DNA of 64,000 bases, taken from Strigamia acuminata. Taxonomy: Eukaryota > Arthropoda > Chilopoda > Geophilomorpha > Linotaeniidae. The stretch lies in the NCBI GenBank assembly GCA_949358305.1, contig OX442315.1, positions 10,380,427 to 10,444,426 of the forward strand, read 5' to 3'. Under the pieces are notes generated by a model. That model saw only the letters and a list, made by a program, of their open reading frames with translations. It made no database searches and had not been told where the DNA came from. Positions 35,204 to 64,000 of the stretch are shown here, piece after piece. The translations under genes and the position numbers were made by a program. The first letter of the stretch is position 1. Each line of letters starts with the position of its first letter.

Positions 35204-35221
35204 TGGGGGCCCGGCCGGGAT
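35204..35221 (+). other. Primer-binding site of Gypsy-D
   Basis: TGGGGGCCCGGCCGGGAT starts 2 bp after the 5' LTR, the same CG spacer as in Gypsy-B. The complement ends in CCA as a tRNA would. The tRNA species is unassigned. Confidence 0.65.
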
Positions 35222-35315
35222 AGTCATTGTATAAATTTTGATAGTTTAAAATTTACCCGCCATTTTTATCTTGCTTATCTTTCTTCTCTATCCTTTCTTT
35301 GTCTTCATTTGAAAA

Positions 35316-38300: not shown

Positions 38301-38339
38301 GTCAAGATCATAACTGACATGTTTCGAAAAAACTTGTAG
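35316..38339 (+). CDS. gag: Gypsy-D Gag polyprotein
   Basis: 1007 codons, unusually long for a Gypsy Gag. A long coiled-coil-like region (about 150-360, Gln/Glu/Ala/Leu-rich) is followed by a Ser/Arg-rich and a Gly/Pro/Asp-rich segment (about 390-590). The retrotransposon gag domain is at about 620-760 (GGVKEWFRRKDFTKWDDFVK), then an acidic stretch and a CCHC knuckle near 970 (CNLCKKLGHWQKDC). The start is the first ATG of the frame (35316). The stop TAG (38337-38339) follows AAAAAAC by one codon. Frame intact. Confidence 0.9.
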   Translation: MATPGEKRPRGRPAKRRVAIDLPAVDQEVTESQELFEAMDQTANCNSAQLIVNEFTQALERQQPSPPSGQLDLNNPTGSGRSKTQNDDLNLRIQSSSAEHSLNSSPVQGAAQQDSENSNMEVSHSPVRVTMMDALREQARLEGVKVTSEMTVEQIHKAMVRKQCQKDVEIVRTGLQAEFERMHAEMQQQNAELKQQRANDHVKLLQLEQEKASWLITDEEQQQRLEQLNHAQKDLEIANENLRLANANLREANTNLMTAELTAPVRAREVIPSTSRNYENHAAEQAARAKRLAQRENEVFLARQQSVIDAGQAAKSQSTAEQLLRADLAAQARENEILRADLLTVQENFAVVVQKVQDVCGEDNFAKPAPVLQKGASKSPELIDLTSAKPKVSRQSSWTDSDDLRSSRGSRNSHHSRKKRKRQPDPTEYHSPNVPQNSDRFFSNSDRLIGLLERKNKEREKPHDRRRSHDNPREGSPKRDCHNDIRDGPRHRGNPPGGDPPGGDSSDGHGGGHSRDHNSNGNRNGRGPPNGDRRPPDGDDPPDPDPPPNPNHESASDTDSSRPSVRGRSRHRTRSRTQRPDFYTKDEIDQLLRQNAQQQRKSRRDKIILQKISEFTSDKWTHQTTDEKFIRWDRVIPHAYNGNWQAGSNLLLEIFELGKVHSFSCEGALAHLVPRILVGGVKEWFRRKDFTKWDDFVKQFMFKFGESSEDIKTLWRCLKQRKGESLHSYMLRAENLLGRMPHAVTDATADDQFRAGLTEYSKNILMMSDAPDPGKFSELNEFMEVNQLRIDEKYKAYLTDSERSAYLKREKRLAEQNNETFNGLKLLQPPSYEDFLDEVEGKSSKKESSKKDVKNPHSVPKLHANITGAETPSSEAEEAEEEEEAGDETLALLAKAAALLAKNNPVAGKWKPRMKSKKVSFDASKVNTERNSKSPAVSPERRSDARSRSASPAATKKKSPATDPCNLCKKLGHWQKDCPSSKKDKPVSTAEFEKAVKIITDMFRKNL
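38327..38333 (+). promoter_or_regulatory. -1 ribosomal frameshift site AAAAAAC (Gypsy-D gag-pol)
   Basis: A AAA AAC in the gag frame, one codon (TTG) before the gag stop. Pol is open in the -1 frame through this point. The same heptamer and position occur in Gypsy-B. Confidence 0.8.
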
Positions 38340-38359
38340 ACGCAGATCCATCAGGTCTA

Positions 38360-41300: not shown

Positions 41301-42586
41301 TTCAACATTGTCAAGGATGTCAGGCATGTAAGCCGAGATCAAAGACCGAAATTGAAGGCGCTCAAATTGGACCATTTGGACCATTTGACTGCCTCAGTGT
41401 GGATTTGTCTGGTCCCAAACCAAGAACCAGAAAAAACAATACCCACATTTGCGTCATCGTAGATGTCGCTACACATTGGCCCGAATTATTTCCAATGTGT
41501 AATCCAACGGCAATAAAAGTTGCCAACACAATTTATCACTTATCAATGACTTTCGGATTTCCGAGACAAATCATAAGTGATAATGGACCACAATTTCGAT
41601 CACAGGTCTATAAAGAATTTTGCAAAAAATTCGACATGTCGCGAACGCCGACATCGATTTATCATCCACAAAGCAATCCTGTGGAGAGAACCAATCGAGA
41701 TATTAAATATTTAGTTTCGATTTATTTAGATATTCATGACCAATGGGATGAGTATCTACGCGAATTTGCATTCAGTTTGAGAACAACTGTAACAAGAGGC
41801 AGAGATTATTCTCCTGCTTTCTTAAATTTTTTCCGAGAATTAAGAATTCCTTGGGATCCAAGAATTCCGGAAGGAATTTTAGTCATTGATCCAAAAAATC
41901 CGCATTTATATGTTCAGAAATTAGAAACAATAATTGCAGAGACGTATCAGCATATGATGTCTCACGTCTTAGATTTGAGACGCCGTGTCGAAGCTGAAAA
42001 ATCAGATAAGAAATTCGACAACTTCAGACAAAATGATTTAGTCTGGCGAGAGTCTCATATTCTCTCAAATGCCGCTAAAGGAATAGCAGCAGGCATTTCA
42101 CCGAAAAGGAATGGGCCTTATGTAATTATCAAAAGGTTACAAGGAGGCGCCTTTCAACTTCGACGGCTGAGTGATAATAAAATTTATCCAGCTGTTCACG
42201 GCACTGAATTAATGCCGTACTTTCCCGTTTTCAACCAAGAAATTTGGCTGGAAGGGGAGGAAGTGGGTCAAAAAACAAAGAATATTGTTAATACCTTGGA
42301 TGATGCTAAATTATCCAAAATTCCTGTCGAAAACACGGAATCGAGTAAAAAATCGAAACTCAAAAATAACGAAGTCGATGAAATAAACCAGCGACTTGAA
42401 AATGTTTCTCTTGATGAAAATCTAGAAAAGGAAATGTTTTTAGAAAAAGAGAAAATTTCAAACAATGAAGTATATAACTCATCTGACATTGGAGACGATG
42501 CTGATGACAATCTAAACAAGTTGGATTGTACTTCGCGAAAGTCAAAGTACAACTTGAGATCTCGCGTTCCGCGAGCCAAGACATAG
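38360..42586 (+). CDS. pol: Gypsy-D Pol (protease, reverse transcriptase, RNase H, integrase)
   Basis: 1408 codons in the -1 frame. The first listed codon is GTG, so expression as Gag-Pol is expected. Protease near 145 (MLDSGANKSF, VLLGCDFM); RT near 380-570 with AYLDDIIVVS; RNase H (HTDASRQGLGA, QTDHQALKW); H2C2 domain (HPLSGHPGIART...CQGCQACK); integrase core with SVDLSGP, IISDNGPQF and NPVERTNR; C-terminal GPYVIIKRLQGGAFQLRRL; then an acidic, Ser/Lys-rich extension. All key residues are present and there are no breaks. It is closest in style to Gypsy-B pol. Confidence 0.94.
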   Translation: MDAASPPKSESENENLKIMEDVGEVIDELIRQTELKEKESLELKKEIVGETPTEDDTSNIKDKVEVKDDRPSSVPETPGIEECIKLFAATTLDTNELLDELPLEPPITIHHKLRKFECKVAGIPNSQDLPTLKLETLKGVITGMLDSGANKSFLATSVINQLGLEEYLRPIGPGVRVTTASEEVTPDGTIHLSFRWTHGTLRHPFIVIPNKYPMVLLGCDFMNKLKIQPNPQTMSWNFTQPVDADLPYIPQALLDRYLEKIEEPDSSFVTFAKAYAASVTQSKIDEENFIQKLVKEANLNLEQSKLLEKMLSKHKRIISKDPGKTHLVKHKIELDTEKPIRVPFKSINPQKREIIRQLCQDMIDKGVVVKAEGDYGMRPVLVMRPGNDPRLCIDFRPINTHTKYNPPQMPTIEEILREIGEFEWVSTIDLTKGYWQIELRPEDREKTAFWSPMGRLMFLVMPFGLVNAPTTFQELMEKVLGDVYRKFAWAYLDDIIVVSKSFQEHIKHLDIVFKKLAEANLHAHPGKTHLCRKELIFLGYKVGVEGLAVDPKKVAAITQFPAPTNLKELQRFLGMVNFFHRLIKNLATVAEPLRPLLKKDAEFDWELHHQAAFDAIKDLLTNAETMKMPDLYMPFIVHTDASRQGLGAALTQKKIVDGQEVEMPCVYASRSLQPAEKNYTVTELECLAVVWGLRKFRPYLEYTTFTVQTDHQALKWLMSLSDPSGRLARWQMELMAYSFEIQYVKGPLNVIADALSRAPVSAPDEPEDDGDNDDLLSYCPSPCRSWQMGKLNELPKSIIVNEDDQALINFCINMHDPSGTPDVELRAMMAKKFELPTTNVLIKAFAAKIAKQLECDPPTRDDIIAAQKADKFCQHIRNYLLNKQYPSYIVTRLQRRNFERHASTYLIEEDMLLHYHPTSTDELGEDGRALKVVVPRKLIYKIIWLMHGHPLSGHPGIARTMYRTRRVYTWKGMKRDITRFIQHCQGCQACKPRSKTEIEGAQIGPFGPFDCLSVDLSGPKPRTRKNNTHICVIVDVATHWPELFPMCNPTAIKVANTIYHLSMTFGFPRQIISDNGPQFRSQVYKEFCKKFDMSRTPTSIYHPQSNPVERTNRDIKYLVSIYLDIHDQWDEYLREFAFSLRTTVTRGRDYSPAFLNFFRELRIPWDPRIPEGILVIDPKNPHLYVQKLETIIAETYQHMMSHVLDLRRRVEAEKSDKKFDNFRQNDLVWRESHILSNAAKGIAAGISPKRNGPYVIIKRLQGGAFQLRRLSDNKIYPAVHGTELMPYFPVFNQEIWLEGEEVGQKTKNIVNTLDDAKLSKIPVENTESSKKSKLKNNEVDEINQRLENVSLDENLEKEMFLEKEKISNNEVYNSSDIGDDADDNLNKLDCTSRKSKYNLRSRVPRAKT

Positions 42587-42928
42587 TGTTGTCTTTCACC
42601 TTTTGGGTTTACCCAAAAGATCCGAGAAAGCAATCTCGTGACGTCATTCGTAGTACCCACTCGAATGACAACGTTAATCATACGTTATAATTAGTGACGT
42701 CACAAAGCGTCTCTAATCCAAGTTCGTGTTTGCAATCAACGAACTTAGTCACTTTTTCAAAAGTTTCGAGAGTGTATGCATCGCATCGCCTACGTTACGA
42801 CCCGAATAGTTCGACAACCTGATCGTAAGTAATTTTTCTGTATGAAAAATTTGATAAAACATAAGATTTATGTATTATTTCTCTTTCAAGACGAAAGAAT
42901 TTCCGAAATTACCGGAAAACGAAAGAGA
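42587..42928 (+). other. Inter-ORF region of Gypsy-D with candidate 5' UTR intron
   Basis: About 340 bp. A strong donor (GATCGTAAGTAATT at 42824) and an acceptor (CTCTTTCAAG near 42889) flank a possible small intron just upstream of the third-ORF ATG. The 5' exon would be non-coding. Confidence 0.45.
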
Positions 42929-45568
42929 ATGGACGAGGAAGCGATCCAACTCCAGGCGGACGGAGAAATGCCCATGGAAGGGGCAAATGAAGACGTTCAA
43001 TTGACGCTTCAACAACGGGTAAATTATTAGAATAAATTTTTACCAAGTGTTTAAGTCAGAAAAATTGAGTAATTTCACTTTTCCTGACTTCAAACACAAG
43101 CCGCTAAAAAATAAAAATGGCGGCTATAAAAGTCACGTGCTTCAAGCATGTGCGAAGGGAGTTGCCATGACAACCAACATCCCTTAGTGACTCACAGCCA
43201 CAAGCGCTAAGCTTAAAAAATATTTCAAATAAGAAATTATTTGTTTATTTTTAAATAAACTAATTTATTTATTTTTCTTCGAATATAGATCGAGAGGGAT
43301 CGAGAAACGCCATTCGCGCTTCCCGATCACGTGCCGACTCAGCACCCGCTGATTTTTCGAGCGGCATTGCCCGAAAAAATCAGAAGACTGAAGACGGCAA
43401 ACAATACCTGGTGGAAGTTGCGCCACGACTTCAGCAGATCAGCGCTGCAAGGATTTGGTGCAAAAGGAAGATTCATCGAGCGCCTTCACGTGGACGGTGT
43501 CGACGAAATCGAGTGGACGCTCGACGAGAGCCCCCCAGGACCGCTTGCAGCAGAGTTGCTGCACAACCAGTGGCCAGTGACGCCACGAGAGCGTCACGAG
43601 CGCAGAAGAGCGCTAAAGAGTACCGGAATTAATTACGGTGCTCTAACCCAATTGAGGAAGAACCTCAAGACGACACAACGCGAAGTCGTTAAACGGTATC
43701 GCAAATCCGTTCGTGACGGGAACCCACAACTTCCCGTCACACAAACCGAGCTCCACCAGTTGGCGCTCGCCGGGTGTTTTAACGATTTTCCGGGATTTTT
43801 CCCGTCCAAAGCACTCCGAGCTGCCGCGGTGCAGCTTCGCGTCGACGAAAATCGACAACTGGCTCGAGAACACGAGGCAGAGGAGCAAGCGCGTTGCGCT
43901 CTCCCTTTTTATCAAGAAGATGAAATTCCGGCCCCAGCGGCCATCAATCCTCCGCCGCAAGACGAGGATTTGAGGGTGGGGCAACTCCCTCCGCCGGTTC
44001 CAGTCCGACCGATGTTCCGCGAATCAAGCCGCGATCGAGAGGAACGTCAGAGGCGATCACGCCCATATTCGACTGACGCGCAGCCATCACGCCCGCAGTC
44101 GCGACGAGGACGGACACCAGAGTCGTTTGGCTCGTCGTCTTCGCTGAGTTTTGAATCGGACTCCACAATTAAGTCCGCCCGAAGTAGCCGAACCGCCTCC
44201 ACGTTCAAAGTGGACAACTCGGCTACTCCATACGCCATGAGACGTGTTGTCGGTGATATTTCTCCCGACTGTAGCGTGCCAGTACCTGGACATGCTAGCC
44301 GCTTGCCCGAACAAGGATATGTTTCCCGCTTGCCGGCTGGAGTTAGCAACCTGCAACTCCGGCCATTTTTTAGTGAGTCATTCGGCCCACAATGGACCTG
44401 CTACGAGCAGCAACCCATTAGAGCACAGCAGGAAGTGCTCCAGAAGCTGGACGCATACCAAAGCGCCCAGATCGCCGAGTCGCAGAAGGACTGGCAGAGA
44501 CTAGCTGAAAGGCTAGAAGTCTCCGACATCAATACCATTGATGATCCCCGTCTGATGGATTTTCAGCGTCAGCTAATTCCGGGGATGACTAGGGTGTTGT
44601 ACCCTGGTGTTCTTCCTTCGCCAGGACAGGCGTTAGCGGCCATAACGTACCTTTGGACCGCGCCGATGGGCCTGTCGGAGAAGAAAGTCGAGCTGTGGTA
44701 CCACCTCAGGCTCGACCCGCCTACGATCTTAGCCGAGCTAATAAAGCAAGTCGTAGCAAACGGTGAGACCGAAGAAGAGGCCGCCGTTCGGTTGCGAACC
44801 GAGTGGTCCTTTGCGAAGGCCACGGCGCGAATGACCGGAAGACCACCGCTTCCAGTTACAAGCGCCACAGCAGCTGCGTCACTGGCTGTTTTCCAGTCGG
44901 CCCAAGAGGGCGCTGGATGTTCATTTTGGCCAGAGAACGCCGGAAGTTCTCAAACTCCAGCCGGAGTTCAACGGGTAGTCGAAACCCGTCAGCTCCCCGG
45001 TGTGGGTCGAGCACCGGGACGAGGCGTCACACCCTCGTCAACCTCCGCACCCGCGTTGGTTTTCTTGGGCCCGCAGTGCCAGTTTGACGATGCCACGACG
45101 GAAGACTCACGTCCGCCGCCGCCGCCAGCCAAGCCGGAGACGAAGGTCAAGCCGCTGAAAAAAGAGTCGGCTTTCAAGACCCTAATGCGCCTGTATCCGC
45201 ACTTCTATTTGACGCCGGATACGCGAACACTGCTTAGCAACAACCACAAGTTGTCGAGGCAGGTGTTTATGTGGCTCGAGGACCACATCCGGGTGTTAAG
45301 CCCACCATCGGTGCTCCATGATCGACTCCTGAGAGCACGATTAGCGCCAGAGGATCCAATCGAGTTCGCGGCGCTAGGATTCTTCAACCGAGCGAACTCG
45401 GCAAGAATCATCCAGGTTTGGCTTCATGTCAACCCTGGAATGGTCTCCGGACCAAACGCAGGTCGCGACCTGTGTACGGTTAACGAGCGGTCCAACCCGA
45501 GGGACGACACCACGGATATGATGCGCCCGTTGACGCCTGAGCGAACTCAGACCATGGACGAATCATAA
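42929..45568 (+). CDS. Gypsy-D third ORF, spliced, env position
   Basis: Predicted exons 42929-43018 (ATG start, donor GTAAAT) and 43289-45568 (acceptor TTCGAATATAG). The intron is 270 bp and the join is in phase, giving about 790 codons. The product is rich in Arg, Pro, Gln and Ser. A basic N-terminal third has WWKLRHDF and RHERRRALK, then a disordered Pro/Arg/Ser centre. A helical region (about 420-560) and LPGVGRAPGRG follow; the Gypsy-C third ORF has a nearly identical LPGVGRAGRR. A C-terminal domain around LMRLYPHFYLTP completes it. There is no zinc motif, signal peptide or membrane span. Not recognisable as Env; function unknown. Confidence 0.72.
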
Positions 45569-45608
45569 ATTGGTTCGTTCATTTTCTCTCCATGTAAGAT
45601 TCGTCTTA

Positions 45609-45620
45609 AATGGGGGGATG
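45609..45620 (+). other. Polypurine tract of Gypsy-D
   Basis: AAATGGGGGGATG directly before the 3' LTR. Confidence 0.8.
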
Positions 45621-46579
45621 TGTGGTGATCTCAAAATATTCACCAACTTAGAAGATTAAATTAATTATCTTCTAATTAATTTGACTGTGGCACACGCCAA
45701 GTCAGATCATGTGACCGAGGGGAGAAATCCTCTCTAGGCACATATCACCCCAGGTTGTCCGGGGTGAAAACGGTTATTAGCCGTTATGGTGCAATATGGT
45801 GTAATAACCACTAGTTGCACCCATTTGAGCTAAGTGCGCAGGTTTTCTGCGCAATATTGAAGCGTGCTGGGCTCGCGTCTTGGCTCAAATCGGGACTCTG
45901 AAAAATACAACAACAACCTCAACATCACTGCTTTTGCTCCTGAAAGAAAAGTATTGATAGAGGACCGTTGTAACTCAGTTTCACCTGCTATCTTTGTGTA
46001 TCAAACGCACAAAGCCAGCAATCCTGCTTGAATTAGCCGTCGCTAATTCCAGCAATCGAGAAGAGAAGATTCCCGACGATCGTGAACCATCGCCGTCGCT
46101 GTTGCGCGAACGACAGCCACCGCCATCGTACGAAAGCCGGACGCCTACAGCCGTCAACCACCGCCGCCGAGCCGTCGCACGAGCCGTAGAAGGAGCCCAC
46201 GAGAACCATCGTCTTCGACCATCGTTCGTGAGTTCGTAGAACGAAGACAATTTGCCTTCGCCTAACAACTTCAAGTTGTTTAAGCGCCATTTCTGACGCT
46301 TTGTAGCTTGCAACAGTCGTTGCAAGCCCTTCCTTTGTTTCATTGTTTCCCGCTCATTTTATTCTGTGATATTCATAATCATAATTAGTATATATTGTAA
46401 TTTATCGAATAAAACATTTGTGTGATTTTTATTACCATAATAAACTGTCTTTTTATTCCTATTTCCGTAAACTTAACCCTAGACAAGTTTCGGCCGCGAT
46501 ATAAGTCTTGTAAAGCATTCACCTGCGGTTTCTGCTTAATTTATTAGAAATTAAGTGGATAAAAACCCGGATCGCAGCA
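45621..46579 (+). repeat. 3' LTR of Gypsy-D
   Basis: 959 bp partner of 34243-35201. Confidence 0.95.
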
Positions 46580-46583
46580 CAAT
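46580..46583. repeat. Target-site duplication CAAT (right) of Gypsy-D
   Basis: Matches 34239-34242. Confidence 0.85.
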
Positions 46584-48023: not shown

Positions 48024-48790
48024 TTTTAGCGATTCTCACTTTAGCGAATCCATTTTAGCGACGACTCGTTTTAGCGACTACCTCGTTGTAGCGCCCAAAA
48101 ATTCGCTAAAATGGTGTGACCGCTAAAATGAGGCGGTGCTAAAACGTGGTCAAAAATTTGTAAGGATTGGTTTGGTTGTGTAGTGATTTGGTATTTGGTA
48201 TTTGGTATTTGTGTAGTAATTCCGACAAAATGTTGATGATTTGTGGTGGTTTTTGATCGGATTTGGTCATAATTCGACAACATGTGATGAAATTAGAGAC
48301 AATTACGATGGATTTTGGCGATTTGTGACGAGATTTGATCAAATTTTGATTGGTTTGATCAATTTAAACGATTTGATCCAATTTTGTTTAGAAATTTGTC
48401 GATATTCGTCAAATTTTGACGAATTTCCACCAAATCAGTGTAAATTTTAATGTAAACAAGCCTCCTTTTGCAATTGCATCACTTGCCACACAACCAACAA
48501 CTATGAATCCACCAACCCACACACAGTAAAGTGGACGCCATTGTCGCTAAAATGTATAATTCGCTAAAACGGGCTTCGATAAAATGTATAATTCGCTAAA
48601 ACGGGCTTCGATAAAATGTATAATTCGCTAAAACGGGCTTCGATAAAATGTATAATTCGCTAAAACGGGCTTCGCTAAAATGTGTCCTAAGCAGCGGTGA
48701 TGTAATCTCATTTACGCTAACATGAGATCGCTCAAATGGGCTTAAAAACCTAAAATTCGCTAAAATGGACGTCGCTAATAAGGAGTGATC
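48024..48790. repeat. Foldback-like element of TTTTAGCGA motifs
   Basis: The left 130 bp repeats TTTTAGCGA in one direction. The right 250 bp repeats TCGCTAAAA, its complement. The AT-rich centre lacks the motif. The same motif occurs at 46820-47040. No coding capacity. Confidence 0.6.
48545..48683. repeat. 32-bp tandem repeat, about four copies
   Basis: Unit TTCGATAAAATGTATAATTC plus GCTAAAACGGGC, repeated almost without change inside the right arm of the foldback-like element. Confidence 0.85.
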
Positions 48791-49068: not shown

Positions 49069-49823
49069 TGGATGTTACTAGCATTTGACTTCCTAGTACA
49101 AAGTTCATTTCATCAATAACTATATCGCTCTGACAGTCGTGACATGTTCCTTTAGACCCCTGCAATAAATTATTGTCAATACAAACTCCCATTATGTTCC
49201 AAAACAATTTTCGCAAAATTTCGGAGCTTTCGGAGTCCCAACAGAATCCCGCCGCCCCCATTGTATGTTTACCTTGCCATAGGATATGGTTATGTTTTTT
49301 GTTAATGGCCTAATTCTTCTGGCATTCCATACTGAACTGATGTTTCTTTTTTCATCTAGAAAGAAATGTGGCGTAGTGCCTAAGCATTGACCAGCTGCTT
49401 GGGAAAAACAAAAACAATTTTTAAAGATATCACTTCTTTTTGACATTTTATTTGCTAATATTTACCTTTCGGATATGCATTTTTTGCTGATTCAATCTCT
49501 AAGGCACTTTGTATAGTTCCAAAACTAAAGATCCCGATGGATATTCCTGGAAAGTCCTCGTTGTCGTTTATAACAGCGGAAACTTTGACCGGTGATGAAG
49601 CGTAGTATTTGATCCGGTCAACTGTCTGGTAGATGCACACTGACACGACTAATGCAGTGATTAAATGCCAAATTACGGAATAAAAATGACGAAATTTGTT
49701 GTTGCGGATTTGAGGAAATCGAGGGAGTAAATGGGGAACTTCGAAGTCCATTTCTATATATTCCGAGACCATTTTTTTCAATCTTTGCACATATTTGCGA
49801 TGTCTGATTCCAGGAACCATCAT
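49069..49823 (-). CDS. Two-unit DEG/ENaC channel gene, exons 1-3
   Basis: Exon 1 (49823-49466) starts at tandem ATGs. It encodes a basic cytoplasmic N-terminus, TM1 (about residues 47-71, LITALVVSVCIYQTVDRI) and the post-TM1 YYASSPVKV segment typical of DEG/ENaC subunits. Exon 2 (49394-49273) and exon 3 (49159-49069) encode extracellular sequence with TCHDC. Donors are GTAAAT, GTAAAC and GTAAGT. Exon 3 ends in phase 1, which fits exon 4 at 33682. The 15.4-kb intron between them contains the hAT/Gypsy-D nest. The upstream promoter was not identified. If the long intron blocks splicing, the gene could be a recent casualty. Confidence 0.7.
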
Positions 49824-49934
49824 GGTGTATGCAAAATTTCCGACGTGCAAGTACGTCTTACTGCTGAATTTTTCGCTTCCAAATTGTCTCTAAAGTGTAA
49901 ACATATTTTACGAGCAATGTGTCTACATCGTCTT

Positions 49935-50370: not shown

Positions 50371-50479
50371 ACAGGCACAATTCTTCTGGGTAGCGCGCCC
50401 TCGAGTTTTTAGTAATGTTGGTGCAACAGCACCCCCGCCTCCTAAAAAAAAGTATTTTAATGACATAAATTCTTTTTAT

Positions 50480-50725
50480 TGTAGAAAAAGGCATTTTTAA
50501 TTGAAAAATATGTATTCTTAATTGAAAAAGACCTATTTTTAATTGAAAAAGTTGTATTTTTAATTTTAAAAAAAGTATTTTTAATTTAAAAAAAGTATTT
50601 TTAATTTAAAAAAAGTATTTTTAATTTAAAAAAAGTATTTTTAATTTAAAAAAAGTATTTTTAATTTAAAAAAAGTATTTTTAATTTAAAAAAAGTATTT
50701 TTAATTTAAAAAGATGTCTTTTTAA
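50480..50725. repeat. 20-bp AT-rich tandem array
   Basis: About seven near-perfect units of TTTTTAATTTAAAAAAAGTA (50560-50710), preceded by looser TTTTTAATTGAAAAA variants. Each unit is nearly self-complementary. Confidence 0.85.
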
Positions 50726-51062
50726 TTAAAACAAGCTGGGATTTGTAATGCAAGGAAGCATTACACATTAGACTTCTAAACCCTGTCCTTTTGTCCCTAA
50801 ATATAACACCGCAATAATAGAAAATAAAGTAATTTAAAAAAAAAAATTTTGTTGCCAATATAAAGCAACAACAAACAAAATCCCACCAAAATTTGATATG
50901 ATATGCTGCGGAATTGTTGCATCCGGGTTTGCTACAATCGGGAAATAAATCGCGCGGAAAACTAGAAAATATTTCTAGTTCGATTTTATTTCGCAGCCAA
51001 TCACAGCTCATTTGCGGCAAACCCCGGATGCAACGTATCCACGAATAAGTGTGAACCGTCTT
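50726..51062. other. Unassigned DNA before the palindrome
   Basis: No gene or recognisable element. Confidence 0.4.
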
Positions 51063-51457: not shown

Positions 51458-51462
51458 ATAGG
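51458..51462. repeat. Target-site duplication ATAGG (left, BEL)
   Basis: Matches 57928-57932. Confidence 0.88.
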
Positions 51463-52029
51463 TGTGAAAATCGGATGATTTTACGCGTAAAGTGAATTAT
51501 TGTTCGATTATTGTGTCATATTGGTATTTCCATTTTACATTACATTGCTATTTGTATTTCCATATTTTACTTGATTTGTTGTTTCATTTTATATTGGTGA
51601 TTGGATATTTCTAATTAATTGATTGAGTGTGATATTGATATATTTCACATTTATACTTTTAAATATTACATTTTTTGTAGATTTATGTTGATGTTTTATT
51701 TCGAGTGTGGTGACCTGTTTCAAATTCAACTGATGTTTCACCCCCACGTTAATCCCTTAATTGGTGGGGTTTTTCCTAACGTGCAAGCACCGTTTTCATT
51801 GGTGCTCTGAACACGTCATCCACATTCCTCTACCTTTCCTTTTGTGTTTAAAATAAGAATAAAAACCAGTGTACTTTTTACCTCTAAAACGTGTGGTTGT
51901 GCTTTTACTTTGCTCCAACGCCATCTTTGAATTTCACCACCATCTCAACTTTATTCATCCACTTGTATCCAGGACTTTGGAAATTTGTTTGGTAGATTTG
52001 TATTGATTTAAACTTATGCAAATTTAACA
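51463..52029 (+). repeat. 5' LTR of the BEL/Pao element
   Basis: 567 bp, TGTGAAAATCGG...AAATTTAACA. Confidence 0.95.
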
Positions 52030-52030
52030 T

Positions 52031-52048
52031 TGGTGCCGAAACCCGGGA
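52031..52048 (+). other. Primer-binding site of the BEL element (tRNA-Phe)
   Basis: TGGTGCCGAAACCCGGGA is the exact complement of the 3' end of a standard eukaryotic tRNA-Phe (TCCCGGGTTTCGGCA plus CCA), 1 bp after the LTR. Confidence 0.88.
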
Positions 52049-52084
52049 AGTATTTCAATTTCCCATCTAATCAAAATCTACAAA

Positions 52085-55000
52085 ATGGTGAGAGTTTTTG
52101 AGTTGAAGAACAGGGCGTTCAGAGCGGCCATATTGGTCACCGAGACGCTCTTAACCACGATAACCACCGCGCTGACCGGACGAGCAGCGATACCGCAAGC
52201 CACGATTGAACTGTGGATGCAGCAGCTCGAGCAGAAACACAAACGAGCTCAAACAACGTTCGACGCCACCTTGGATCAAGCCAAATCTGACCAGGAAATC
52301 GACACCACGGTGCAGGCACTCGACGCGTTGGAGGACCGTTTGGCAGCAGCAAGAGCGGAATTAACAAGGTACATTCAAGCGTATTTTCCGCCCGTTCCAC
52401 CCCAGAATTTACGAACGGACGCGGACGCGTCACCGGCGACGAACATCGACGCACTAGCGGCGGCCATTACCGCAGCAGTGTCGGCGGCGACGCCACGTGT
52501 GACCCCGACAAACGGCCAGCCATTCATCAAACGCAAACCGCTGGAGATTCCCAAATTCGACGGGCGCAAACCTGAGGAGTGGGGAGGGTTTTGGAAAACA
52601 TTTTCCATTCAGGTTGGCGACGACGAGCAACTGGATGCGACACATAAACTGTTACATTTAAGGACGCATTTGATGGGAGATGCGTTAGATGACATCAAAG
52701 CGTTGGAGATCACAGCTGGCAATTATAATATTGCGATTACGCGTCTACAAAAAAAATATGGCGACAAGATCGTGCTTGAAAACAAATATTTGTCAAATTT
52801 AATTAACCTACCTTTAGTCAACAGCGATCGAGATAGGATGGGGCTCCAGAAGCTGCACAGACACGTAGAAATCAACATCGAGAATTTGGCGAACATCGAA
52901 GTACCATTGGCAGAAATTCAGCGTACCATTTTTCCCGTGCTGTCGTCCGCCATACCACGCAACGTGATTATGGAGTACGACAAAGACTGCGACGGAGAGA
53001 GGTCGGTAACGAGGCTAATGGATTGGCTGAGCAGTTACATCGCTAAACACGCCAAATACGACATGATGAAAACTCAAACAAAACCTGATGCAGCAACAAA
53101 CAAATCGTCATTCACGGATAACGCCCACAACAATAAGGGAAAATTCAAACGAAAAGAAAGGGAGCCTCGATCTGGATCAGCGTCACAACTTTCGGTAATA
53201 ATAATAAAATGCCAATTTTGTGATTCCACAGAACACAACCGAAAGCGATGTCCACTCTCGATGGAAGAGAGACGTAAAAAGTTGCAAAAAAAGGGAATTT
53301 GCTTGCGATGCTTGGGAAAAGCACCCCACAAAACTGAGGAGTGCAGGACTCGCATGAAATGCTACAGCTGCGAGGGAGCGCACCACACACACGTGTGCGA
53401 CACGCCAAAATCTACGGAGGTCGTCGAGGGAGTCACCCATTCGAACTCAGTAGTCACCACCTGTCCACCCAAGTCCGAATTTTTGATGGTCCAGATGGTG
53501 AAAATGGCCGGACCAAAACTGTCGACGTCGGGAGTGTGTTATATCGACGGAGGAGCTCAACGCACATTCATACGGTCCGAATTGGTAAAAAAACTGAACT
53601 TAAAAATTTTAGGGACAGAAACCATCAACTTGGCCGTGTTTGGACAAGAGCCGAAGTCAGAAATACGCAACAGAGTCGAATTAACTCTCAGCCCCGCCAA
53701 TTCGAAGTCACCAGCTGTCACGATCGAGGCCATTGAAACTGCCCACGTCACGTCCACGCCCGGAGAGCAGCCAAATGCGCAACTTAAAGCCGAACTACAT
53801 CGAAGAAAAATCGAGGTGGCCTGTAAACAAGTCGCATTGCATTCGAAGGAAGTGGACCTATTAATTGGAGTGGACCATTACTGGCGTGTAATGACAGGCC
53901 AAACGGAATTTTTGGAGGAGAATTTGATTGCAGTAAAGACCAAATTCGGTTGGACACTACACGGACAGACCACAAATGGGACAAGAGTCATTGCTGCGCC
54001 GGTAAGAATTAACAAAATTACGCTTACTCCATCGACAGATGACCTTTTACGCCGGATGTGGGAACTGGAACCGATTGGAGTGCGCCACGAGTCGGTCGAA
54101 GACAACGACGACGCTGAAACGCTGCAGAAGTTCGAAAAAACCATCAAATGGACGGGTTCAAAGTATTCCGTGGAACTGCCGTGGATCGTGGACACCAGCG
54201 AGCTCGACGACAATTATCGAGGAGCAGAACAACGCATCATGTCGCTGATTCGTCGCTTCCGAAAACAACCAAACCTCTACTTAGAATATAAGAAGGTTAT
54301 CGACGAGCAGTTGAAAATGGGAATTGTTGAAGAAATTCCGAACCAAACTTCGACAGGACCAGTCTACTATATGCCTCACAGCCCAGTGATCAAGGAGGAA
54401 CGCGTCACCACAAAATTACGAGTCGTATTTGATGCATCATCACACCGAAAAGGCTACCTTTCCTTGAACGATTGCCTGTCAAAAGGTATAAACTTTCTAC
54501 CTTCACTCGTATTTATGTTGCTAGGATTTCGTCTTGGGAGAGTGGCAATGATAGGTGACATCAAAAAGGCGTTTCACATGATCGAGATCGCTTTAAAGGA
54601 CCGTGACGCAACGAGATTTTTCTGGATTGATGAATGCTGGGACGGTGTAGGAAAGGCATTGTTGAAAATATTGCGGCAAACTCGAGTTTTATTTGGCGCC
54701 ACACCAAGCCCATTTTTGCTGAGCGCCACCATTCGCCATCACTTGCGCAAATACGAAGAAAAATATCCAGAAACTGTAAAACTGTTGTTAAAGTGCCTGT
54801 ACGTGGACGACTTCATCTCATCCCTCAAAACCGTCGCTCAAGCACTGGTAACATTCCGCCAGTCTAACCTGATTTTTACAGAAGCCGGCATGGAACTCGC
54901 CAAGTGGCAAACCAACTCATCGGAACTTAGAGCCAAATTTCGCGAAGAATGCCCCTCCGACACTCTGCTGGCGTTAGATGAAGACACAAAGGTGTTGGGA

Positions 55001-57376
55001 ATCAAGTGGAACCCGAACTCAGACGAATTGGGACTGACGGTCGATGAAACTTGTCCACCTTGCAAAAAAACGACAAAAAGGGAGGTAATAAAAATAACGG
55101 CTCAAATTTTCGACCCCTTAGGATTTGCCACACCATTCACCGTGACAGCGCGCATGTTTTTCCAGTCCCTGTGGCTCAGAAATTTGCCATGGGACGATGA
55201 ATTAGAAATCGAGTTGCGCACTGATTGGAAGAAATGGATCGACCAAATTCCCAGCCTGAGAAAAATTCGAATTCCACGATGGTTGGGATTGGACGAATTT
55301 GACCAGTGCGAAGTGCACATATTCTGCGATGCGAGTCCAAAGGCATACGGGGCCGTGGCATACGTCCAGAACTCTAATGGTGAATTGATTGAAACTAATT
55401 TCATTTTATCAAAGTGTCGTGTGGCTCCTGTTAAGCCGCTTACTCTGCCACGTCTCGAACTCATGGGAGCTCTGATTGCTGTTCGTCTCGCCGATCAAAT
55501 CAGAGAATTAGCGACGCCAGGCGAAATATTTTTTTGGACGGATTCGCAGATTTGTCTACATTGGATAAAAAACACATCCAAACGACCGCCAACCTTCGTG
55601 CATAATCGGGTGCTGGAGATAAGAGAGAAGTCAAAAGTCGACGAATGGAAACACGTACCGGGCGTTGAAAATCCTGCCGACCGCCTAACAAGAGGAATGG
55701 ACGCAGAGGCGATGATCGTCGAGCGACTTTGGTGGGAAGGACCAGACTGGCTGCGCGAAAGTCGCCAAAATTGGCCAAACCTACCGACGGAGTCGGTCGA
55801 AGAACAAGACGAGATGACGGAAACCCACGTCGAGGCGGTGCAGACAACGATAACTAATGTTTTTCCGTTTGCCAGGTTTGGATCGCTTTCAAAGGCAATC
55901 CGAACGCTGGCATGGATTTTCAGGTTCGCTGATAACGCAGGGAGACGACAAGAGGACGCCAGCCACCGAGGTCGAGGCCCATTGACGGCAGCCGAGCTGC
56001 AACGTGCGAGACTCAACTTAATTCGAGTTGCACAGGCAGAAATTTATGGCTGTGAGATGGACAGACTGAAGGACGGCAAACAAGTTCAGAGAGACTCCAA
56101 ACTACGAGATTTGAATCCACGCCTGAACGAAATGGGGTTAATCGAATTGCAAAATCGACTGCATGAGTCACGAGACGTGCCCACTGCTACACAGCCTTTG
56201 ATTTTACCTCCTAAACACGAACTTACAAATCTAATTTTGCGACATTCTCATTTACAGGTCCTCCATTGCGGGTTGACAGCCACGCTGTCTAAATTTCGAG
56301 AAGTTTACTGGACGCCATCCGCAAGGAGGACCTTGAAATCGATGTTGGATCGATGCACCATTTGCAAAAAAATCAATGGTCGACTGATGCGAGAAGTGCC
56401 AGGCGCCCTCCCAGCCGACAGGACAACCAGATGCCAACCGTTCGCCGTCACCGGAGTCGACTTCGCAGGACCAGTGATAGTAAAAGGGCGAAAAACTAAA
56501 TCTTACATTGCAGTTTTCACATGCGCAACCATCCGAGCCGTTCATTTGGAGTTGGTACCCTCGCTGGCAACAACAGACTTTTTGGGAGCATTCGAACGAT
56601 TCATTAGTCGCAGAGGGCTTCCGAAAATCATGTACAGTGACAACGGAACCACTTTCCACCGCGCGCACCTGGAGTTGGCCTCACTATTGAACCATACGAA
56701 GGACGAAACTTTCCAGAACTATTTGGCCCAAAAGGGAATCGAATGGAGGTTTATCGTCGAGAATGGACCTTGGTGGGGCGGCTTTTGGGAGAGGATGGTA
56801 CAAACTGTGAAAAGGTGTTTGCGAAAAGCCATCGGATCCGCGCACCTGAATTTTTATCAACTCGGGACATTTCTGGCGCAAACCGAGGCCGTGATAAATC
56901 GTAGGCCGATTACCTACGTCTACGACAATCCGGAGGAAATCGAACCGCTCACACCCGCACATTTTTTGACCGGCGTGATGCTGACTCACCTGCCTGATTC
57001 AGGAGCGACGGAGGATCACGAGCCAACGCAGAAAGAGTTTATTCGACAGTGGCGCTACCAACAGCGTGTGTTACTGTCATTTTGGACGCGTTGGTCTCGC
57101 GAGTACCTGACAGACCTAAAAATTCAGACGGGCAAGTCAAACACGCAGGAGCTTCAATTGAACGACCTCGTTATTGTGGAAGAGCCGTTTAAACCACGCC
57201 TAAAGTGGAAAATGGGTCGAGTGGTCGAGGTCAGACGAGGTCGGGACGATAAAGTCCGATCATGTGAGTTGGTGCTCGCTAATGGAGAAAAATTGCGTAG
57301 GCCAATACAACGTCTTGTGCGCTTGGAGGTGGAGTCAAACAACTCCCTCCCCGCCGGCAGTGTGAAAATCGGATGA
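52085..57376 (+). CDS. gag-pol: BEL/Pao Gag-Pol polyprotein
   Basis: One 1763-codon ORF from AAAATGG at 52085. Gag with a DUF1759-type region ([16 protein letters not shown], about 160-330); two CCHC-type knuckles ([27 protein letters not shown]); a Pao-type aspartic protease near 485 ([10 protein letters not shown]). Then Pao RT ([20 protein letters not shown]), RNase H ([13 protein letters not shown]), an H2C2 region (CTICKK) and an integrase core with [15 protein letters not shown] and [13 protein letters not shown]-terminal DUF5641-like domain ends in [13 protein letters not shown]. The frame is intact. Oddities: the protease has D-G-G instead of the usual D-S/T-G, and the stop codon falls in the 3' LTR. 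Confidence 0.94.
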
Positions 57377-57927
57377 TTTTACGCGTAAAGTGAATTATTG
57401 TTCGATTATTGTGTCATATTGGTATTTCCATTTTACATTACATTGCTATTTGTATTTCCATATTTTACTTGATTTGTTGTTTCATTTTATATTGGTGATT
57501 GGATATTTCTAATTAATTGATTGAGTGTGATATTGATATATTTCACATTTATACTTTTAAATATTACATTTTTTGTAGATTTATGTTGATGTTTTATTTC
57601 GAGTGTGGTGACCTGTTTCAAATTCAACTGATGTTTCACCCCCACGTTAATCCCTTAATTGGTGGGGTTTTTCCTAACGTGCAAGCACCGTTTTCATTGG
57701 TGCTCTGAACACGTCATCCACATTCCTCTACCTTTCCTTTTGTGTTTAAAATAAGAATAAAAACCAGTGTACTTTTTACCTCTAAAACGTGTGGTTGTGC
57801 TTTTACTTTGCTCCAACGCCATCTTTGAATTTCACCACCATCTCAACTTTATTCATCCACTTGTATCCAGGACTTTGGAAATTTGTTTGGTAGATTTGTA
57901 TTGATTTAAACTTATGCAAATTTAACA
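57361..57927 (+). repeat. 3' LTR of the BEL/Pao element
   Basis: 567 bp, same as 51463-52029. The pol stop codon lies inside it (57374-57376). Confidence 0.95.
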
Positions 57928-57932
57928 ATAGG
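57928..57932. repeat. Target-site duplication ATAGG (right, BEL)
   Basis: Matches 51458-51462. Confidence 0.88.
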
Positions 57933-58022
57933 TGTTTCTGTATTTTTTGGTGTTTTTACAAACAGCGAAAACAAGACAAAAACTTGCCTAAGTAACTGTG
58001 AATGAGTTCGTTTTTGGGTTTC
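57933..58022. repeat. Right part of the dispersed repeat disrupted by the BEL element
   Basis: Continues the repeat of 28757-28853 (GTGTTTCTGTATTTTTTGGT onward). Confidence 0.75.
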
Positions 58023-58601
58023 ACGCTTATCAGTCTTGAAAGACAATGGTCATTAAAATATCTATCATTTCAATCAACTAACAAATTGTGTGACTCACTT
58101 GTTTGAGTTTGAGCACAATTATGCCTTTACTCATGTTTTAGGTGGTTGATGCATCGCCTGAACGCAGCATAACGATATTTGACCCCTCAAACTAACTTTC
58201 ATGGCAGCCATTTTGAATTTGGTTGGAAAACTCTTAACTGGAACTTACGTAGCTTGCAGTATAACTGGAAATAGCGCAACCAATCAGGTAATTTTCCGCT
58301 ATTTACGTCATTGCCCAAAAATTGCAAATGACGACTACTTGTGATTGCCGACATTTGCAATTCTCCGCATCAAGCAGAACAGCTACGAATATCTACATAA
58401 TATCTTATCGTTAAGTTTGATTGTTTAAATATAATTTATTGTATGAAGCCATGGCACCAAAGAGTTAATCGTAAAATTTGCAGGAATAATCGAGTAAGAG
58501 CAAATTCGGAACACGAACAAATTTGGAACAAAATTTCATAAATAAAAGGGAAAATTGCATACCGCAAATCATAATTTTTCTCTTTTCCCTTACACTATAT
58601 A
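58023..58601. other. Unassigned intergenic DNA
   Basis: No gene recognised. Confidence 0.4.
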
Positions 58602-58783
58602 CAGTCGAAACTCTTTATAACGAATCGCGATATAACGAATTATCGATATAACGAATACCTAAAAATGGCTGGTTTGGTTGACTGGCCATAGAACACCATG
58701 TTAAAAAATTTCGATACAACGAATTCTCGTTACAACAAATCGATTTTTTGGGTCCCTTGCAATTTGTTATAGAGTTTCGACTG
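58602..58783. mobile_element. Tigger/pogo-like MITE
   Basis: 182 bp with inverted ends CAGTCGAAACTCTTTATAAC and GTTATAGAGTTTCGACTG, flanked by TA on both sides (58600-58601, 58784-58785). Internal TATAACGAAT repeats. The CAGTCGAAACTCT terminus is typical of pogo/Tigger elements. No transposase. Confidence 0.88.
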
Positions 58784-58969
58784 TATAACATAAAATTAAG
58801 CATAACTATGAAGGAAAAGTCGCCGCCGGAAACTGTGTATTAGACACAAAAATTTACAAATAAGACTAATTTTTCTTTGTTATTTTCAACATCCAATCCG
58901 TACTGGAAGTGCGAGCACAGTTTACACGCTATTTCACGAAATTACTATAAAATATCAATGTGTTACATC

Positions 58970-59130
58970 GTCTTGGTAACAATAGTAAATTTGCACGTTG
59001 AAAATTTTAATAGTTTCCCGCCTTAATTTTAATAGTTTCCCGCCTTAATTTTAAGTGCGAAGTAAAAAAAAAATGTTGTTTGTGCGATAAAACTTCCATT
59101 ATAGAACGTTATAAATTTTAGGGGAGTTTT
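58970..59130. repeat. Dispersed repeat family (copy 4)
   Basis: Shares CATCGTCTTGGTAAC, a TTTTAATAGTTTCCCGCCTT block (duplicated here) and TAAAACTTCCATTAT with copies at 29320 and 49935-50370. Confidence 0.6.
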
Positions 59131-59390
59131 TTGGGTTGGGCTCCACTGCACAACGTTAAAAGAGACGCACTTTATAAATGCCACGAGCTAACCCGCTATC
59201 CTATCGAATGAGCAGTTTTTAAGGCAAAAAATGTAAAAAGTCCATTCCTTCATTTTAAGGCCATTGCGCACTTCATAAATATTATTTGCGAGACGTATCT
59301 TACAAAATAAAGTTACAAAAAAATAAATACTTGCGTAGAATGTGTTTAATTAATCAAATCTTTTAATTTATAATGCTTCGAAGTGCCATC

Positions 59391-60227
59391 TCACGCCAAT
59401 TGATCAGCACCTTCATTGTCCACATTCCCGGAATAATCCGAAACAAGTTCCTAAAATCATCAAAAATTAAAAAAATAATTAAAAAAATAATAATTTAATT
59501 CTTCCAATTCACTTTCATTCCCCGGAACAAGTCATTCAACTCCGCAAAATCCTCCCTGTTCTTGACCGGTTCACCGGAAGCAGTTTTCCAGTCGTTTCGC
59601 TGCCATCTGCCCATCCATTCGGTTTTACCTTAAAAAAATGAAAATTTATTGATATTTAATCGGCTAATTCGGATTATATCACTCACTTTTAACCATAATC
59701 TCACTTTCGGTGTTTACAGTCACCTCCTGGTCTCCGAGTGCCTTTGTCTGACCAATTTCTGCGGGATTATTAGTCTGGCGGCCTTCGAGCGGCTCGCTCA
59801 CATTCCTACAGTTAAATTAACGTTTTACGAGTACTTGTTTTGAACATTTCCGGTGACTAATAATTTTGTCTTTCGTACATCGAGTCGTTTGGGCCCAAAT
59901 ACACGCCGATTCCGGCACCGGAAGTACCTAGGATGGAGACAATTTTGTGAAAAAATTCAAAATAAAATTAAAATTAAAATTTACTCGTTTCGTGAGGTTG
60001 TCCGCTCCAGAAATTCCTAGCGTCCGATTCGCTGCTGAATATCTTAAATTGGGTTCCGGAATAGCCGTAAGTCTGCGCTTTGTATTCGTCCCTCGAATTA
60101 AAGAAAAATTAAATTAAATTAAAATTATTTCGATATTTTTTTAAACAAATTAAATTAGTCAGAAATTATACACTCCGGTGTTGAAGCCTTCAGCAACGGC
60201 GTTGTATTCACCGTCTTTTCGGCTCAT
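59391..60227 (-). CDS. RNase H1-like gene with lost catalytic residues (six exons)
   Basis: Exons 60227-60172, 60091-59985, 59927-59879, 59805-59687, 59628-59513 and 59450-59391. All phases agree (507 nt, 168 residues), with donors GTATAA, GTAAAT, GTACGA, GTGAGT and a weak GTGAAT. The N-terminal hybrid-binding domain is recognisable (YNAVAEGFNTGV, GTQFKIFSSESDARNFW). The RNase H fold follows: GAGIGVYLGPND, EPLEGRQTNNPAEI, EWMGRWQRNDWKTASGEPV, GNVDNEGADQLA. Family RNase H1 removes the RNA of RNA-DNA hybrids using four acidic residues. Here the first (TDG) is missing and TDS is TES; AEI and the last Asp remain, and the H in PGH is Tyr. Probably inactive: either a young pseudogene with intact splicing or a binding-only paralogue. 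Confidence 0.72.
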
Positions 60228-60651
60228 TTTCTTTGAATCGTCTCACTAATCGGGGTTGGTTGCGTGACTCTTCTTGTAATCGTTTTCAACGAAAAACTAC
60301 AGAAGATTGCAACGGCCACCATGTTTTGGAAATCCATTCAGTGTGATTGGACGGTTGTAATCACGTGATTTGATGGGATCTACCTCGGATCTGCCGTTCG
60401 CGTTTAATTAATAAAATTCATTGGAGATGTAAATAACTCGCCACTAATAATCGTTTTCGAATTTTTAATTCGTTCAAATCAATATGGTTTTTATTTTTTA
60501 TAAAAAAAAAAATTGAATTTTCAAAACCATCTAAAATGTGAATCGTTGTTGTTGATGGCGGCCATGTTCAGTTTCACGTTTTAAACTCAACTTAAAGTTT
60601 AATAACTTTTAAACCGAGAACTATAGCCCAGGCGCGATAATTTCGAGCAAA
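60228..60651. promoter_or_regulatory. Shared region between head-to-head RNase H1-derived genes
   Basis: 425 bp separates the two start codons, facing outward. It contains an E-box-like CACGTG near 60362. A bidirectional promoter is plausible but no core element was proven. Confidence 0.4.
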
Positions 60652-63018
60652 ATGAGTTGCATCAGTGAAAAAGGGAATAACTCGCAGTAAATTTCATTCA
60701 CAAAAAGTACAAATTAGTTTAATTTTATTAAAAATTTAAATTTCTTATTTTTACTTTTCAAGTGACGAATGCGAAGCGCAAACTATTCAACATTGCAGAA
60801 ACCATGACAAAAATTTGTATGAAACAACTGTTTCAGGTACAAAAATAAATTTATAATTTTTTTTTTTTGGAATTTTAATATTATTTCAGTTTATTTCTAT
60901 TATTTTCCATTTTTCCAGAAAAAACTTACAATTCTGCAATCAAAATGAATCGCAGAAGTGGAAACCTTTTCCAACCTCTCAGTAATTTTATTTTATTCCA
61001 GTTAATAATTCGCGCATTTAGGGCGCGGGGATTTAAAATGGGCGCATCTGGTTCACAAATTTAGATGGTGCGCACAATAATGCAGTAATTAAATTAATTT
61101 CTTTATTGTTTTAATTCTGCGCGTGAATCTGAGGCCGCGCTTAGTATGGCCTAATTTGTGATGCACGCATCAGGTCCTGGCCGAGTAAAACACGAATTAA
61201 ATTTAATTTAAAAAATATTTTTAATGAATTTATATATTTCTAGATTCACATTGCGCAGATGTGTTCACAAATGGCGCATACTCCTCCAATGGTCCAGACG
61301 CAGGAATCAGTGTATATTGGAGCCCAAATGACCCTAGGTATGAAAAAAGTTATTTTGTCACAGGCATACATTTTGGGGCAGGGACAAAATAGGCGCTTTT
61401 AAATCAACTGTGATAATTAAATAATTAAATAGTGGGCGCACATTTAGGCCCGTGCTTTGGTCCCACCCCACATTTTGGTCCAATATTTAATTACGTCGTA
61501 TGCAAGCGCAGAGTTTGCACTTATATTTATTTTGTAATTGATTTCCATCTCTTTTTTTCATCCAACCAAGTTTACATGTATGGTATCGTGTTTTACAAGT
61601 ACCCAGTTATTTAATTAAGTTAAAATCCAAATTTTACTTTTCTGGAAACTAATCACATAAATAAATCGGTTTTCCAGATACTCATTTTACTCAATTTTAC
61701 TCAATTACTAACTGAAATATTATTCTTAAACCTGTTATTAATACGGAAATTTTTTAATCTTTACCAACTGTTCTTAATTCTTCTTTCTAGTTCCAGTGAC
61801 AGTGATAGTTCATCCACTCAAGAGGAAGTGGTCACTCCTGTTGCTGCTGATTTTGTGGTGCTGTCACCTGAAGAAGTCGCAACCACACAAGAAACAATCA
61901 TCGAAGTCACCGAAAAGCATCGTGATCAAATTGGGGCGCCTTGTGTCAAGATGGTTTGGTCAAACATTTCCTTCATAGGATATATTGATTCAGGCGCCCA
62001 GACTTGTGTCATGTCGAAGCAGCTGTTTGACCAACTGCATAAACGAATGGGACTACAACTCATGCCTGTGAATGATTCCATTGTCACAGCATCAGGTGAG
62101 ACCTCATGTGTGTCTGGAATCGTGCAACTGGCTGTTAGAGCACCTCTTGCGGTGGTGAAATTTGTGTGCTTAGTCACACCAAAAACAGCTCGGGATCTAC
62201 TGATAGGCAACGACTTTTGTAAGGCTGTCGGTATTTGTGTTGACCATGGACTGTCTCAATGGTATTTGAAAGGGTCAGGTCAGCAAAGACCATTTCTTAT
62301 TGGCACTGATGAAAAGATTAACCAACCAGATACCAAACTAACCAATGTGCCCCATGTCACTGAATGTGATCAGCATGGGTGTTCCAAATTTCCAGATTAT
62401 ACCTTGAGTGTTATGCGTCAGCTATTTTTTAAATATGACTTTCGATTTCTGGCCCCAATGCCCAACCGTGGGGTCATTTGGGTGGATTTTGAGAAGTCTG
62501 GATGGAAGGAACTCATTGCAATTATGGTTAACCACGATTTCGATGTTGAAACTATTGATCGAAAATCTATCATCAGCAGTGTCTTTCACAGTCTGAAGCA
62601 GATAGTTACCTGTGTCAATGGCATGATTGAGTGCAAAGAGTTAATAACCGAAAGTCAGGTTCAGCGAGCTATTGTTTTGGAAACGCATAGAATCATGGAT
62701 GATGAAGTTCTTCGAAATTCACTCTCCAAGATTCACAGGGCGGATAAGAACAGAGAGTATTTGGCTAAGCAGGAGGTTGCTAAAATCTACTTCGATGAAT
62801 GCAATAGGAAGGAAGCTGCTGCACATGAGGATAAGCGACTTGGGATGGATAAGCAGAAGGAAGAGGTGTACGATGTTGTTCGAGATGCGCTTGATTCATC
62901 AACTGGTACTTCGTTTTTTGCGCCTTCTTTGGCGCCATCAGAACTTGCGCAATCAGGACTTGCGCAGCCACCATCGAGCTCTGTTTGTGGTGGCCAGGTC
63001 GGTCACCATGGAAATTAG
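60652..63018 (+). CDS. Chimeric gene: RNase H1-like N-terminus fused to retrotransposon protease and third-ORF domain
   Basis: Predicted exons 60652-60686, 60763-60836, 60919-60981, 61244-61337 and 61791-63018. All have GT-AG borders, phases agree, total 1494 nt (497 residues). Exon 2 resembles the RNase H1 hybrid-binding domain (DECEAQ). Exon 4 is the first part of the RNase H fold (ADVFTNGAYSSNG, AGISVYWSPND), with TDG changed to TNG. Exon 5 encodes a complete aspartic protease (YIDSGAQTCVMS, RDLLIGNDF) closely matching Gypsy-C pol. It runs directly into the domain seen at about 560-680 of the Gypsy-C third ORF (LAPMPNRGVIWVDF, GWKELIAIMVNHDF). A charged helix and a Ser/Pro tail follow. No LTR, RT or integrase is nearby. 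It looks like a domesticated fusion; expression is unproven. Confidence 0.7.
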
Positions 63019-63382
63019 AAGTGTTTTGGGTGTTTTTTTAAGAAGAGTTTTTTTATATATTTAATGGACGAAAAATTGCGTTGAAATATTCGAGTAATTA
63101 ATCATCATGTTTTTCTACTATTTGCATAATCGTGTATTTAGCCAGAATAAATGTTCGTATTTTATTTTCTCTAAAAATGGATTTTATTAAGAATATGAGT
63201 CATGAAGACACAGCTGTTTTGGTTGCCATGGAGTTGAGAATCAGCCTCATTCATTATTTTAGCGTTATTTCTGTTATTGGCTGTATTGGACGTACAACTT
63301 TCGTAAGTACACGCAATGTGGTTGGTCAAGGGATTACTGACCATCTATTTATGTCACAATGGTAAATTATTGTAAACTTGAT
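63019..63382 (+). other. 3' flank of the chimeric gene
   Basis: Includes AATAAATGTTCG at 63146, a candidate poly(A) signal. A short frame at 63132-63365 shows no family resemblance and is not supported. Confidence 0.4.
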
Positions 63383-63462
63383 ATGCCAAGCTGGTTTTGA
63401 TAATTTTTTTTATATTTTAATGCCAAGTTGGCATTAATATAAAAAACGAAAAAAAAATTATG
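63383..63462. repeat. Inverted repeat (hairpin)
   Basis: ATATTTTAATGCCAAG is followed by TTGGCATTAATATAAAAAA, then flanking A/T runs extend the stem to about 25 bp with few mismatches. Confidence 0.65.
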
Positions 63463-63539
63463 ATATTTCCAATAAATGTTGCTGCTCAATTAGACGTATT
63501 TCAGGCTCACTTTCAATTTCAACTAGCAATAAAATGCGT

Positions 63540-63790
63540 ATTTTATTTGAATTCCTGGCGTCCGATTTGCTACTGAATATGTTGAACTGGATTCCATTCC
63601 GTGAGCCCGCGTTTTGCATTCATCCCTTGAATAAAAGAAAAATTATAATATAAGTAAAACCATTTTATTTTATTTTTTAATAAATCAAATTAACCAAGCA
63701 TAATACACTTCTGTATCACGGTTTATTGTGTTCGTGCTTCTAAGATCATGGTGCAGCCTTTAGCAATGGCGGATATGGCGGATATGTTTT
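63540..63790 (-). pseudogene. Decayed RNase H1-like fragment (exons 1-2)
   Basis: The minus strand of 63545-63625 matches exon 2 of the 59391-60227 gene (ATATTCAGTAGCAAATCGGA versus ATATTCAGCAGCGAATCGGA) but with frame breaks. 63745-63775 matches exon 1 (GCCATTGCTAAAGGC). The sequence beyond, to 64000, follows the upstream flank of that gene (60400-60560), so this is a segmental duplicate. Confidence 0.65.
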
Positions 63791-64000
63791 AGGTACCTTG
63801 ATGTCGCGGATCTGCTCTTATTACTATAATTATTTAGAGATGGAATTAAGTCGCCACAAATAATTGTTTTCGAATTTTTTTCTTCATTAAAATCAGTTTG
63901 TATTTTTTTTTAAACAAAAAATAAAAAATTGAAAGAAAAATAATCTAAAACGTGAATCGGTAAAAGGTACCTCAACATCGTTACTGTTGACGGCATTTTA

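Follow-up and report, generated by a model that had tools for sequence, protein, structure and literature searches.

The locus described here occupies positions 60652–63018 of the window, that is, the whole 64,000-nt stretch of Strigamia acuminata contig OX442315.1 that was analysed. A five-exon gene is proposed there on the plus strand, with a last exon homologous to a Gypsy retrotransposon and with RNase H1 relics on both sides. The features, in window coordinates, are the following:

59394..60227, minus strand: RNase H1 copy, decayed and oriented head to head relative to the proposed gene
60652..60686, plus strand: proposed exon 1, 35 nt, with the start codon; open, donor GTAAAT
60763..60836, plus strand: proposed exon 2, 74 nt; hybrid-binding domain of RNase H1, as a relic (DECEAQT...)
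60919..60981, plus strand: proposed exon 3, 63 nt; open, GT-AG borders
61244..61337, plus strand: proposed exon 4, 94 nt; catalytic domain of RNase H1, as a relic of its first strands (FTNGAYSSNGPDAGISVYWSPNDP; TDG replaced by TNG)
61338..61790, plus strand: proposed intron 4, 453 nt, 31% GC
61791..63018, plus strand: exon 5, 1228 nt, 44.5% GC; 408 open codons followed by a stop
61840..62340, plus strand: retropepsin-like protease stretch matching Gypsy-C Pol, DSGA at 61987 and LLIG at 62197
62368..62757, plus strand: stretch in common with the C-terminal domain of the Gypsy-C third ORF, from protein alignment
63146..63151, plus strand: AATAAA, possible poly(A) signal
63550..63709, minus strand: second RNase H1 relic, from the hybrid-binding part at the 5' end of the 59394–60227 copy; 75.6% identity with 60012–60174
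63820..63959, minus strand: 76.8% identical copy of block 60407–60545, itself situated upstream of the minus-strand RNase H1 copy

Translation of the five exons (1494 nt) gave 497 codons and one stop, and GT-AG borders were present at all four introns (76, 82, 262, and 453 nt), so the coordinates and compatible phases of the original prediction hold throughout. The GC content was 14.5% in introns 1 and 2 and 35–37% in exons 2 and 3. The stop-to-stop frame that includes exon 5 extends from 61624 to 63018, and its first Met falls at exon 5 residue 54, inside the matched protease stretch and 12 residues ahead of DSGA. With no Met before this residue, translation of a full protease must begin farther upstream, where the exon model provides a start. 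The AATAAA at 63146 is weak evidence, because two more are found at 63471 and 63528. The tetranucleotide GCGC was 2.5 times as frequent in 60900–63020 as in the first 57.4 kb (8.5 vs. 3.4 per kb), the excess lying, as read by eye, in introns 3 and 4 and at the end of exon 5.

Exon 5 had been described as a Gypsy-C-homologous protease joined directly to the C-terminal domain of the third ORF, and protein comparison with the Gypsy-C element of the window (minus strand; Pol at 10076–13570, third ORF at 5168–7903), which represents the source family of both parts, bore this out. Residues 17–183 of exon 5 matched Pol residues 137–301 (81/167 identical, 49%; E = 4e-53), and residues 193–322 matched third-ORF residues 519–654 (36/136 identical, 26%; E = 1e-15). 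A looser alignment carried the latter likeness to residue 338, and the last ~70 residues had no match in the comparisons made with Gypsy-C and the window elements. The identities of 49% and 26% indicate that Gypsy-C is a relative and not the parent copy. The two parts share one frame with no host sequence between them, and tblastx against the window placed the protease (61849–62298) before the third-ORF stretch (62368–62604), in the proposed order. Retropepsins (A2-type aspartic proteases) are marked by a DSG or DTG motif and a hydrophobic-hydrophobic-Gly motif. Both were present, as DSGA at residue 66 and LLIG at residue 136 of exon 5, and the DSG motif is intact as predicted. Pfam scores for the protease were 25.8 and 24.0 bits, just below the curated cut-offs of 28.2 and 24.3, and an AlphaFold model built from three sequences (mean pLDDT 42) was too poor for a retropepsin fold to be called. 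The two members of the third-ORF domain gave no Pfam match better than E = 0.045; the PDB matches of the domain were chance-like, and it did not resemble the third ORF of element B or of element D.

In contrast to Gypsy-C, the surroundings of exon 5 yielded nothing clearly matching RT, RNase H, or integrase in tblastx of 57400–64000 against the window, consistent with the absence claimed for all three. LTRs were not found in the same interval by comparison with the elements of the window, a comparison that an unlike LTR family would escape. Exon 5 carries two of the signs by which a domesticated retrotransposon gene is recognised, namely an intact element-derived frame and mobility parts (RT, integrase, LTRs) that were not found; transcription and purifying selection at a conserved locus are the others. 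Scans of viral and prokaryote contigs, collections unsuited to an animal gene, gave no relative. An origin of the fusion within the element itself was also considered, in which a non-autonomous Gypsy derivative has copies elsewhere and the RNase H1 neighbourhood is one landing site. The single frame without intervening host sequence fits this origin, as do the direct repeats that flank the proposed gene (60012–60174/63550–63709 and 60407–60545/63820–63959); however, these repeats hold RNase H1 coding relics and are only 76–77% identical, and thus look like gene duplication and not LTRs. Moreover, tblastx found no second copy of the fusion within the window, and spliced element RNA was rejected as the source of the protease/third-ORF junction, the 26 GT-AG joins ranking 564th or worse among 11453 in-frame joins. 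We consider an element-borne fusion improbable.

Other elements and genes were observed in the window. Gypsy-B (1200–28341) is bounded by an LTR-like pair at 1200–2879 and 26664–28341 (99.5% identical), and Gypsy-C, apparently nested inside it, by a pair at 3167–4208 and 15550–16591 (99.6%). The minus-strand third ORFs of Gypsy-C (7732) and Gypsy-B (18017) each contain a DnaJ-like CPxCSGTG...CxxC knuckle; Pfam matches were below cut-off, and blastp detected no mutual likeness between the two ORFs at 1e-3. A third Gypsy element (34243–46580) has LTR-like ends of 960 nt that are 100% identical, and its 759-aa third ORF gave no Pfam match up to E = 1. A BEL/Pao element (51462–57934) has a single frame of 1782 aa, and its terminal repeats are 99.7% identical across 575 nt. 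Pieces of amiloride-sensitive sodium channel (DEG/ENaC) genes, indicative of an animal host, lie on the minus strand at 32393–33217 and 49455–49889, and short tandem repeats (units of ~32 nt) and a multi-copy array occupy 48544–48683 and 50444–50735. In the window, no Rfam family reached its gathering score, and tRNA genes were not found.

The relationship of exons 1–4 to RNase H1 was evaluated by nucleotide alignment of each exon with the minus-strand copy, and 1000 shuffles were made per exon. Exon 2 contained a 21-nt match (60764–60784; 2/1000 shuffles as good) and exon 4 a 33-nt match (61300–61332; none as good), and no likeness was seen for exon 1 (961/1000) or exon 3 (718/1000). By eye, the alignment showed the exon 2 acceptor and the exon 4 donor at the positions that they have in the minus-strand copy, the donor also in the same phase. 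Compared with the solved structures 6vrd and 2qk9 of human RNase H1, the likeness consists of the relics in exons 2 and 4, the exon 4 stretch matching weakly (E 0.087–0.24), and Pfam detected no RNase H family in exons 1–4. The first catalytic acidic residue is lost in exon 4 (FTNG in place of TDG), the hybrid-binding domain of exon 2 loses register after DECEAQT, where gaps break it, and most of the catalytic domain is missing from the model. The RNase H1 part therefore cannot work as RNase H1. Hence the resemblance claimed for exons 2 and 4 stands as two short relics, whereas the idea of RNase H1 exons in a functional sense fails, leaving at best a relic leader. WD-40 proteins listed among the PDB rows for exons 1–4 were rejected; they have the look of a repeat artefact, and a single stretch passes alone in only one of nine rows.

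The minus-strand copy at 59394–60227 matches RNase H1 when its pieces are joined by hand (6vrd_A, E = 7e-26; Pfam RNase_H, 1.2e-18; RNase H1 N-terminal domain, 7.2e-12). That this neighbour still works was nevertheless rejected, since the copy is itself decayed: it has no GT at the expected start of the first intron (by eye, against the protein family), the TDG region has shifted out of frame, and ADQLA is followed by a stop. Every RNase H1 copy seen is decayed, and the leader of the proposed gene may accordingly be dead too. The RNase H1-type promoter of the original prediction is only an inference, because the duplicated block (60407–60545/63820–63959) is upstream not only of exon 1 but equally of the minus-strand copies.

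Chance was assessed with 300 shuffles of 60600–61790, in which frame-compatible chains to exon 5 were built from GTA donors and TTNNAG acceptors. Some chain was allowed in 219/300 shuffles and one with four upstream exons in 24/300, indicating that compatible phases alone are weak evidence. When acceptors were limited to TTCNAG, a rule picked post hoc once the model was known, a four-exon chain appeared in 0/300 shuffles and once in the real DNA. These counts bear on the suggestion that exon 5 is used without the proposed leader, either through a different set of upstream exons or, unspliced, from Met54. In its favour, homology is lacking in exons 1 and 3, and the looser rules give 23 chains of one to four upstream exons in the real DNA, the proposed one included; against it, no chain but the proposed one has four upstream exons when the strict post hoc rule is applied, and that chain uses two ancestral RNase H1 splice sites. 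We consider a different leader very improbable.

Composition provided better evidence of more than chance than the compatible phases. The best-fitting GC-rich segment was 61793–63011, with rough 95% ranges of 61758–61830 for its start and 63000–63037 for its end, close to the proposed acceptor at 61791 and the stop at 63018. With codon frequencies trained on ten element frames of the window, frame 0 scored best in all six parts of exon 5. Exons 1–4 had a codon score of 0.101, higher than 200/200 non-coding samples; this result is weak, because the samples hold penalised stops whereas the exon model is open by design, and a further frame reaches 0.064.

Between exon 5 and Gypsy-C, changes at codon positions 1/2/3 numbered 76/44/114 over 173 codons of the protease and 85/68/109 over 145 codons of the third-ORF domain, with dN of 0.47 and 0.95, respectively, and a dS that was not computable. 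This divergence is mostly history inside the element. Under simulated neutral change, the exon 5 frame was unbroken in 14–38% of runs at 1% divergence and in ≤0.8% at 5%, and exon 5 must therefore be either young here or kept. The first of these cases corresponds to a recent neutral remnant, an internally deleted Gypsy fragment in a dead RNase H1 duplicate whose element-inherited frame is not yet broken. In favour of a remnant, the window is crowded with young LTR elements (99.5–100% identity in four LTR pairs), the neighbouring RNase H1 copies are decayed, and the frame survives 1% divergence at the rate just given; the rate at 5% and the 5' composition step at an AG preceded by a pyrimidine-rich tract speak against a remnant. 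The coincidence of the stop with a composition step would be expected of an element remnant as well and counts against a gene. A recent neutral remnant is nearly as likely as a chimeric gene.

Taken together, we tentatively favour a host-transcribed chimeric gene, at a probability of roughly 0.43, in which the leader of a dying RNase H1 duplicate would be followed by the Gypsy fragment as last exon. It is favoured by the unbroken 408 codons with both protease motifs, the GC-rich segment bounded near acceptor and stop, the frame 0 codon scores, the need for a start upstream of Met54, the lower GC content of introns 1 and 2 than of exons 2 and 3, and the exon 2 acceptor and exon 4 donor at the sites of the RNase H1 paralogue; the lack of homology in exons 1 and 3 and the ease with which shuffles yield some chain count against it. 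The original prediction was therefore half supported, in its parts, their order, the protease motif, and the gene-like architecture, but not in functional RNase H1 exons. A chimeric gene could have arisen if a Gypsy-C-like retrotransposon lost all that separated its protease from its third-ORF C-terminal domain and the leftover fragment came to lie behind exon 4 of the decaying duplicate. To that exon it would be spliced as the last exon, a step for which order, frame, and homology are observed and the splicing is predicted, and the RNase H1 remnant would persist solely as a transcribed leader and start. The product would presumably be a short leader followed by a dimerising retropepsin and a helical element-derived domain. 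That this is a living host gene, with the RNase H1 duplicate giving promoter, start, and donor to a functional protease–third-ORF protein that possibly acts against the parent elements, seems somewhat unlikely. A role against parent elements is speculative and doubtful in itself, although it would be the most likely one if there is any: the third-ORF domain might bind proteins or particles of the parent elements, and the protease might cut them or poison their processing.

Animals are known to carry domesticated proteases of retroviral type. Human ASPRV1 (SASPase) is a retrotransposon-derived protease that, like exon 5, retained the protease and lost most other element parts and the LTRs (PMC11402058); it combines a Gag-like capsid domain with the protease, whereas the exon 5 model has a third-ORF domain and a host-gene leader. 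Exon 5 matched solved ASPRV1 chains weakly (E 0.09–0.49). PEG10 is likewise retrotransposon-derived and keeps a DSG protease (PMC7212762) but, in contrast to the exon 5 model, also keeps Gag and frameshifting and has no host exons. No title describing an RNase H1/Gypsy protease fusion was found in the literature searched, which was covered incompletely. Known exon-capture chimeric genes mostly involve DNA transposases, whereas the proposed gene would involve an LTR-element protease. In host–transposable-element chimeras made by exon capture (PMC8700633, PMC9250109), as in the proposed gene, a mobile element gives the host transcript an exon.

If the locus is transcribed and conserved, a Gypsy protease together with an element accessory domain would have been acquired by splicing into a host gene duplicate. 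The gene would then also provide a handle on the third-ORF domain, and exon capture from LTR elements would become testable.
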